64,000 nucleotides of DNA from Aquila chrysaetos chrysaetos (taxonomy: Eukaryota > Chordata > Aves > Accipitriformes > Accipitridae), in assembly GCF_900496995.4 (NCBI RefSeq), contig NC_044019.1, positions 4,437,501 to 4,501,500 of the forward strand, in the 5' to 3' direction. The notes under the pieces were generated by a model. It saw nothing but the letters and a program-made list of their open reading frames with translations. It was not told where the DNA came from and searched no databases. This document shows positions 50,501 through 53,500 of the stretch, one piece after another; position 1 is the first letter of the stretch; each line of letters starts with the position of its first letter. Position numbers and translations under genes: made by a program.

Positions 50501-53500
50501 CCCACAGGCAAAATCAGACATCACTTGGATAGAGAAAGACCTTGTGGACTCGGCAGACAAGGTAAGAGAGCCTGCTGCAGATGTGCACCTCGAGGAGACT
50601 CATGCATTTAATTTGCACTTTGTCCCATGACGGGTCGTCCCACGTATGCGAGGGCGTAAGCAGAGCTCGCAAGGACCTCTCTGAAAACCAAACCTTTTCT
50701 GGCAGCAAGCCCCTACCAGCCCGTCTCAGCTAGGTGGGACGGCTAATACAGAAAACAGCTATTACTCACTTGCTCACATGACATCCTGGACTTGATTTCA
50801 TCCTCCTCCTCCTTCCTCCCCACACCAAACCCCTTTCCGTGCTGTCATATATGTCTCCTGTGGCTTTCTGATCTTGTCAGCTTGCTGGGGCGGGCGCTCC
50901 AGAGTTTTAGTGGCAGGGACGTACAGTGGGGTTTTTTGATTGCTTTTCTGAGGCTCCTCTCCCCGTGCTGAGTGCCTGATAACGCAACATGCAAAATTGT
51001 CTCGATCGGGACAAGATTTATCAGATCTTGCCAGGCCCACACGCAGAGAGCTGGCTGGCTGCATCTCCTGCACAGCTTCACTGAGCAACGTAAAGCTTCC
51101 TTAGAAGCGGTGATGCTCACCGTCGGACGGCACGTTGTGGACACGGTTTCTGCTTCACTGGGACTGTGGCAGGGCGAAGGAGGTGTCAGTATGAACCGAG
51201 TCTCCTGGAGACTTGTGCTCAGCAGCTGCGCGGTGCTGTTTCATGCTGCTCGCTGGCACCTGCTCCCTTGCTTTGGACCTCATCAGCTATTGAGGTTCCC
51301 TCTGTGGAGCTGGGACCAGCTGCCTTGCTGGTATTAAGTCATTTGTTTCTTTCGTTATCGGTTCTTAAAGAGCACATTATGGGGGCGGAGGAGGCAAGAC
51401 AGTCATAAGTAGTTTCTCTGGGTCCAAACCAAGATCCTCTTTTCATACTCTGCGCTCTCTGGAGAAATTCAGAAATCAACGCTGACACGGGGTTATTTCT
51501 AATTGCGAAGGTGCGTGGGTGTCTTTTTACTCATTTCAAGGGGTTTCTTTCTTACCTGTGCTCTCTGGGGTCTTGCTGCAGAAGACATCTGTCTGTCCTG
51601 ACCCAATGGAAAGGGCAAAGGGGAACAGGCTTGGAGGGGAAAGGAGGCAAAACAAGCGATCTAAATACCTCTCCTCTGTCCTGCCAATAAATCCAAGCAG
51701 CAGTGGGTTCAGAAGCTGTCTGCATCAGAAGCACCCTTAAAAAATACCTCGCATGGAACTTCCCAGGGTGGCTGTTAGATAACTCCAGCATCCACAGCAA
51801 GTACTCCCGTACAGCATAAAGCAAATGACGGACTAGGTGCAAATCCTAGTGATGCTAGAGGATTTGCCCATGGGATCGATGCACCCCAAATCCCATCATG
51901 GGTGACTTATCATCCCTGTGCCAGTGTGAGAGCAAAGAGATGTGCAGCTTTCCGAGGTGGTGTCAGACTTCTGTGTGAGGTTTCGTGAGTTTTCCTTTTT
52001 AAAGAGTAAATGGCTTCTCGGAATATTCCCCCGTTGTGGAAATACCCCCAAAGCTCACAGCCTGACATGAGATTCATGCAGCACTAGATGGAAGTCACTT
52101 TAACTAGACCATGTATGTTTTCTGTCAGCATCTTGTCTGAACCAGGGAACCCAAATGTGAACAAGGAGCTGTGAGATTTTTTTTTTTTTTTTAAAACCAA
52201 AACCAAAAAAAAAAAAAAAAACCCAACCAAAAAGCCCCAACCACAAGCGCTGTTGCTGGGGAGTGGGAGCGTGAATGTGCCTCTGCAACCGAGTCGCTTG
52301 TCTCCACTGCGCATCTGCCAGCTGGGCTTTAACCACCTGTATCTCCTCCATCCGGCAACCTCAAGCGTGGGGCGTCCATGCAGCTCCGCGGAAGCCTCCC
52401 CGATCCTCGGGAGCCGACCGTGCTTCCCCGGGATCTCGCGGGGGTGACGGTTACTGGGGCTGTGCGATGTTGATATCGGGATGGGAGAATGGAGAGGGAC
52501 CCTAAACTTCCTCGCATCTGCGCGTTCCTCACGCTCTGGCTGCAGAGGAAACATCGAGCCAAGCCCTGCAGCCTGCAGCTGCCTGCCCCCAGCCAGCTCT
52601 CCAGCCCGGTCAGTACTGCCGCTAGCTCGCTTTGCTTCACTTGGTGTTGCTGGTGGCTCATCCAGGTGGGCTGATGCTTCAGATGGATATTCGGAGCAGT
52701 CTGGTTTGCTTTTTTTGTTCTGCCTTCTGGGATAGTTTGCTTCACGGTGCCATTTGAAGAAACTTATCTCGGTACAAGCAGAGTCTGTTTGTGCTCGGTG
52801 GCACGCAAGTGCTTTTGTGCTAGAGACTTGTTCTGGTGCTGCTAAACAGGCTGTAGGAGCTGGTCCCCAGAGTCCCAACTGTTGAATTGCAAGTTACTGG
52901 ATGAGTCCACGGGAGAAAACCTCCCTTGGGTCAGCGAGATGCCAAATGGCATCTCAAAGCTTTTCTCAGAAAGCTATCAACAATGTCTCTGCTGATGCCA
53001 CTTTTGGTCTTGTTGGTATGTATATATGTATGTGTGTTTGCTGATGTGGTCTGGCTAGCAGGTTGCATATGCAAATCTTTGCCTGCCTTCAGATACAGCT
53101 TGGGCTGCTGAAACCACTTGTAGTTAAACACCCTGGGTCTTGCTATTGGCCAAGGCAAAGAATTCCCACAGCTGTGAAAATACCTCGCTCCGCAGCTCCT
53201 GAAGAGCTCTGGCGGGAGAATGGGTCCGGATGCCTTGGAGGTGGATACAAGAGTTCATTTTAAATGTTCCTCTCTGCATAGGTGTGTGATGCTACGGGGT
53301 GAAACATGCATGGTTGTACGAGTGCTGATGCTGTGTAGTCCTGGTTTCTCTCTAGTGTTTTCATGAAGATGGGGGGAGCAGAAAGAGCCTACAACTTCCA
53401 CTGGTCCGATCCCTGGGTCTCTCCCTGCTGTGGGGTCGCTCCCTGGGGAGCTGACCAACAGGGAAGGACTAGCAGGAGGAGACCTCTTGGCTGACTGCCC

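Follow-up and report, generated by a model that had tools for sequence, protein, structure and literature searches.

Most work on the kinase RSK1 (RPS6KA1) uses, to our knowledge, the form that begins MPLAQL. Human RPS6KA1 isoform 2 is taken here to begin with a first exon of 45 codons that opens MEQDPKPPR; this sequence and its link to accession NM_001006665 are assumed to be correct throughout. Passages of PMC3189207 and PMC5783939 give NM_001006665 the label RPS6KA1. In human leukaemia cells, intron 1 of RPS6KA1 contains a RUNX1/RUNX1T1 site 12 kb downstream of TSS1, and a second transcription start site (TSS2) lies immediately downstream of it (passages of PMC7822815). The fusion protein represses TSS2, RUNX1/RUNX1T1 knockdown raises TSS2 activity twentyfold, and RPS6KA1 is named among the genes whose predicted protein change is confined to N-terminal residues (passages of PMC7822815). 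Passages of three further papers report alternative first exon use of RPS6KA1 in human and mouse macrophages (PMC8260223), differential splicing among human immune cells (PMC10499523) and differential splicing of Rps6ka1 during mouse B cell development (PMC8975553). The passages of PMC7822815 and PMC8260223 neither specify the first exon concerned nor give a protein sequence for it, and we infer that human TSS2 is the source of isoform 2. A second RPS6KA1 promoter is already on record in mammals; what is new here is its probable counterpart in a bird. Full-text literature searches for an alternative RSK1 N-terminus, also in combination with chicken, and for the peptide string MEQDPKPPR in 5.39 million papers gave no match.

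The bird locus was analysed in a window of 64,000 nt, the whole stretch of DNA examined. Canonical exons 1, 2 and 3 lie on the + strand at 26505–26567 (21 residues), 33557–33601 (15 residues) and 50508–50561 (an 18-residue insert). Exon 4, the first exon common to both isoforms, follows at 55317–55434 (+ strand). Among the matches listed in a comparison with PDB sequences, the joined exon translation scored 691.6 bits to RSK1, 660 to RSK2 and 589 to RSK4; no RSK3 chain is among the 20 matches listed, so RSK3 was not compared there. By comparison with these solved structures, the host gene is RSK1 (RPS6KA1). The translation is nearly identical to what we take to be the chicken RSK1 sequence but differs from it in each of exons 1–3, which would fit a bird other than chicken.

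A putative alternative first coding exon of RPS6KA1 was located at 52489–52608 (+ strand) on the basis of its open frame and its match to isoform 2. As the original prediction had it, the translation runs without a stop for 40 codons from an ATG at 52489 to a phase-0 end at 52608, and the ATG stands in a strong Kozak context (gggagaATGG, with A at −3 and G at +4). The predicted location in intron 3 is also correct, since the exon sits between canonical exons 3 and 4. The predicted splice from 52608 to 55317 keeps the frame into exon 4, with ...ctttttcag on the acceptor side. From the exon order, an isoform starting at 52489 would lose MPLAQL and the 18-residue insert, as had been claimed, and we add that exon 2 would likewise be absent. 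The reading frame opens only at 52474, and an in-frame stop 5 codons 5′ of the ATG leaves a first coding exon as the sole option for 52489–52608; a role as an internal exon, entered in frame from 5′ coding sequence, is ruled out by the same stop. A repeat-derived exon was rejected, as 52236–52700 is without a second copy in the window apart from a 29-base match at E 0.29. Searches of Pfam at E 0.1 and of PDB sequences at E 10 returned no match to the 40 residues, which says little because the 39 residues of exon 4 are also without a Pfam match at E 0.1. Rfam at gathering thresholds detected nothing in the 64,000-nt window, and scans of viral contigs (exact, 20 bases) and of prokaryote contigs (degenerate) returned 0 matches.

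The 40 residues were aligned to the assumed human isoform 2 exon using BLOSUM62 with gap costs of 11/1, a comparison proposed with the original prediction. The alignment runs end to end with a score of 75 and has 18 identities over 41 columns; 13 of the 18 fall within the first 27. None of 20,000 shuffles reached this score (best shuffle, 54). Both strands of the window contain 1733 ATGs, of which 477 were dropped for having fewer than 8 residues; the exon ranked first among the 1256 frames tested, and the runner-up scored 38. Other frames of the same DNA on both strands scored 15–22. The presumed canonical N-termini of human RSK1, RSK2 and RSK4 scored 17, 18 and 12 against the exon, no better than shuffles; these proteins carry the same kind of downstream kinase, but their N-termini are dissimilar to the exon. 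Features shared with human isoform 2 include the Met start, the MExDPKxPR opening, the WLxRKxR core and a Pro/Ser tail. The human isoforms, as we assume them, diverge at precisely the residue with which bird exon 4 starts, and the human junction inferred from them is to the same downstream exon. The bird exon differs in being 1 residue shorter mid-exon and, with its donor at 52608, 5 residues shorter overall. Ten PDB sequences matched the isoform 2 query, with alignments that begin past the N-terminus or at its last residues. The proposed parallel between the two N-termini is upheld by this alignment, the human sequence being the assumed one. We conclude that the known human alternative first exon most likely has its bird orthologue in 52489–52608. 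The arrangement of two starts in RSK1 is probably older than the bird–mammal split, which agrees with the age originally suggested; conservation since that split holds only if the assumed human sequence is right.

Two phase-0 5′ splice sites are available to the exon. The phase of the originally predicted donor, GTCAGT at 52609–52614 (+ strand), was confirmed, but the site is weak. CCG-GTCAGT has C at +3 and scores 1.98, against 4.04 for CAG-GTGGGC at 52666–52671 (+ strand), 57 bases on; both scores come from a 5′ splice-site frequency table that we presume to be accurate. The exon could accordingly be real and conserved but spliced after 52665, giving a 59-codon N-terminus, an explanation that differs from the preferred one only in its donor. 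Its site is the stronger of the two, keeps phase 0 and is the one selected by the ATG, donor and CpG scan described below. However, the alignment to isoform 2 stops at 52608, extension of the frame to 52665 adds nothing to it, the human exon of presumably 45 codons is nearer to 40 than to 59, and the two donor scores depend on the presumed frequency table. Splicing after 52608 is favoured because the isoform 2 match ends there and gains nothing beyond, and use of the 52665 donor is considered unlikely.

A candidate second promoter is a CpG-rich patch at 52051–52800, in which 400-base windows have CpG observed/expected ratios of up to 0.80 and GC contents of up to 0.62. The ratio is 0.73 at 52100–52499, the 96th percentile of 400-base windows in the 64 kb, and 0.95 in the 200-base window 52360–52559. 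The same rule identifies 13 CpG-rich stretches in the window, including those at 49.1, 50.0 and 50.8 kb, and three of the 13 lie within 4 kb upstream of the exon, so the patch alone proves nothing. Confidence in the exon is unmoved by these 13 stretches because it is the alignment, not the CpG patch, that carries the case. Canonical exon 1 is in a more GC-rich stretch (26051–27300, GC up to 0.82).

Both strands were scanned for ATGs with a purine at −3 and G at +4, a phase-0 donor and a CpG-rich setting, with donor scores of at least 1.97 within 20–80 open codons and window edges left out. On the + strand, 914 ATGs were reduced to 117 by start context, 2 by donor and 1 by CpG content; the sole survivor is the ATG at 52489, by way of donor 52665 or 52608. 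The same filters on the − strand gave 790, 102, 1 and 1. The 1.97 donor and CpG cut-offs were set after the exon had been seen, so the scan is a description and not a test.

Ten motif sets were applied to the 301 bases upstream of the exon, and a single RUNX-type site and a single TGACG were detected. The RUNX-type candidate, AACCACA, is at 52239–52245 (+ strand), 250 bases upstream of the ATG. AACCACA has 15 sites in the window and occurs at least once in 7.1% of 301-base windows (22.9% for a looser 6-base form), and TGACG occurs in 13.7%; at these frequencies neither site is significant. The human RUNX1/RUNX1T1 site by TSS2 is placed in "intron 1" in a passage of PMC7822815, whereas the bird exon follows canonical exons 2 and 3; either the position or the exon numbering may differ between the two genes. 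Directly upstream of the candidate promoter, 52176–52235 is simple sequence consisting of poly-T and then an A-rich AAAACC-type stretch.

Upstream ATGs are present at 52275, 52378, 52467 and 52481. Three of them are out of frame with the exon; the ATG at 52378 is in frame, and its frame terminates at 52471. The ATG at 52481–52483 (+ strand) has G at both −3 and +4 and is 8 bases before the exon ATG. Its frame, when spliced at 52608, runs through the donor into a stop in exon 4. With an out-of-frame ATG in good context at 52481, translation of the exon would need leaky scanning or a special start site, so that the start site and leaky scanning would matter for the amount of protein made. The frame at 52481–52608 may act as an overlapping upstream frame that limits translation.

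The weak donor and these competing upstream ATGs would suit a relic, in which an ancestral first exon survives as a remnant after decay of its promoter or splice site in this lineage. The 40 codons are still open and match the human protein end to end, the start context is still good and the CpG patch is still present; we regard such decay as quite improbable. An open frame arising by chance in a GC-rich patch of the intron might be suspected from the 269-codon stop-free antisense stretch over the same place and from the 354 of 1733 ATG frames that are open for 40 codons, but it is rejected as extremely improbable on alignment score (75, with no other tested ATG frame above 38), shuffles (best of 20,000, 54) and frame-specificity, with strand, frame, phase and gene all correct and the human sequence assumed right.

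The exon also resembles the N-terminus of RSK3 (RPS6KA2) isoform 1, which we take to be MDLSMKKFAVRRFFSVYLRRKSRSKSSSLSRLE. Seventeen exon residues align ungapped over FFSVYLRRKSRSKSSSL of this presumed sequence with a score of 41, ranking 1 of 1256 frames, and 0 of 20,000 shuffles were as good (best shuffle, 39). The resemblance of human isoform 2 to RSK3 is weak, with 257 of 20,000 shuffles as good when both assumed sequences are used. In a tblastn search of the window with RSK3, the exon stretch reached only E 0.42 and was outscored by two unrelated places (E 0.034 and 0.22). Both N-termini are basic (net charge +8 in RSK3 and +5 in the exon) and both directly precede EGVVKEI, but the first 12 residues do not align. 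The peptide string MDLSMKKF was not found in a full-text literature search. As judged from these comparisons, the resemblance to RSK3 is possibly new and hints that the exon arose before RSK1 and RSK3 duplicated. It is plausible that the two exons share an origin, and we lean slightly towards the alternative first exon of RSK1 and the standard first exon of RSK3 being copies of one exon of the single RSK gene that preceded the vertebrate genome duplications. That ancestral gene would then already have used two promoters to make two N-termini, one acidic (MPLAQL) and one basic and serving in targeting. RSK1 would have kept both and RSK3 would have favoured the basic one, and the bird exon would retain a resemblance to RSK3 that is mostly lost from human isoform 2.

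We consider it very probable that 52489–52608 is the bird orthologue of the isoform 2 first exon, with its own promoter, an in-frame splice to exon 4 and a resulting swap of the N-terminus. A second promoter just upstream, in the CpG-rich patch, would start a shorter transcript, whose first exon would splice in frame to exon 4 and leave the kinase unchanged. In this swap, 54 residues of net charge −7 (MPLAQL...DK) give way to 40 residues of net charge +5, so that the bird canonical RSK1 N-terminus is opposite in charge to the exon. The exon translation has a hydrophobic run, ICAFLTLWL, adjoining QRKHRAK; its helical moment, 0.284 as compared with 0.243 in the canonical form, is unremarkable. 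The new N-terminus would most likely act as a tag for targeting or docking, directing the same ERK-activated kinase to another place, a role proposed because the exon resembles the presumed RSK3 N-terminus. The alternative form would be under separate transcriptional control, which in humans would be RUNX1-linked.

The RSK3 resemblance provides a direct hypothesis for the alternative N-terminus, namely placement in the cell. Binding of mAKAP is attributed to the RSK3 N-terminus, and if that N-terminus is a scaffold-binding tag, RSK1 isoform 2 should be able to reach a similar site. Passages of two reviews and one research paper list RSK3 as an mAKAP partner; the N-terminal attribution is not stated in those passages. 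If the second start has been kept, RUNX1- or inflammation-linked switching in human cells is worth study at the protein level. Birds and mammals split some 300 million years ago, and a second start kept for that long would make it very likely that the alternative N-terminus is functional.

Three other stretches of the window were recorded. The − strand is stop-free for 269 codons at 52084–52893, antisense to the exon, which is probably a by-product of base composition. An open, charged, coiled-coil-like stretch (KKLQQEG...) at 2456–2662 (+ strand) may belong to a neighbouring gene as an exon; a Pfam search at E 0.1 gave no match to it. A large CpG island at 5201–7600 (CpG observed/expected up to 1.09, GC up to 0.79) is likely a neighbouring gene's promoter.
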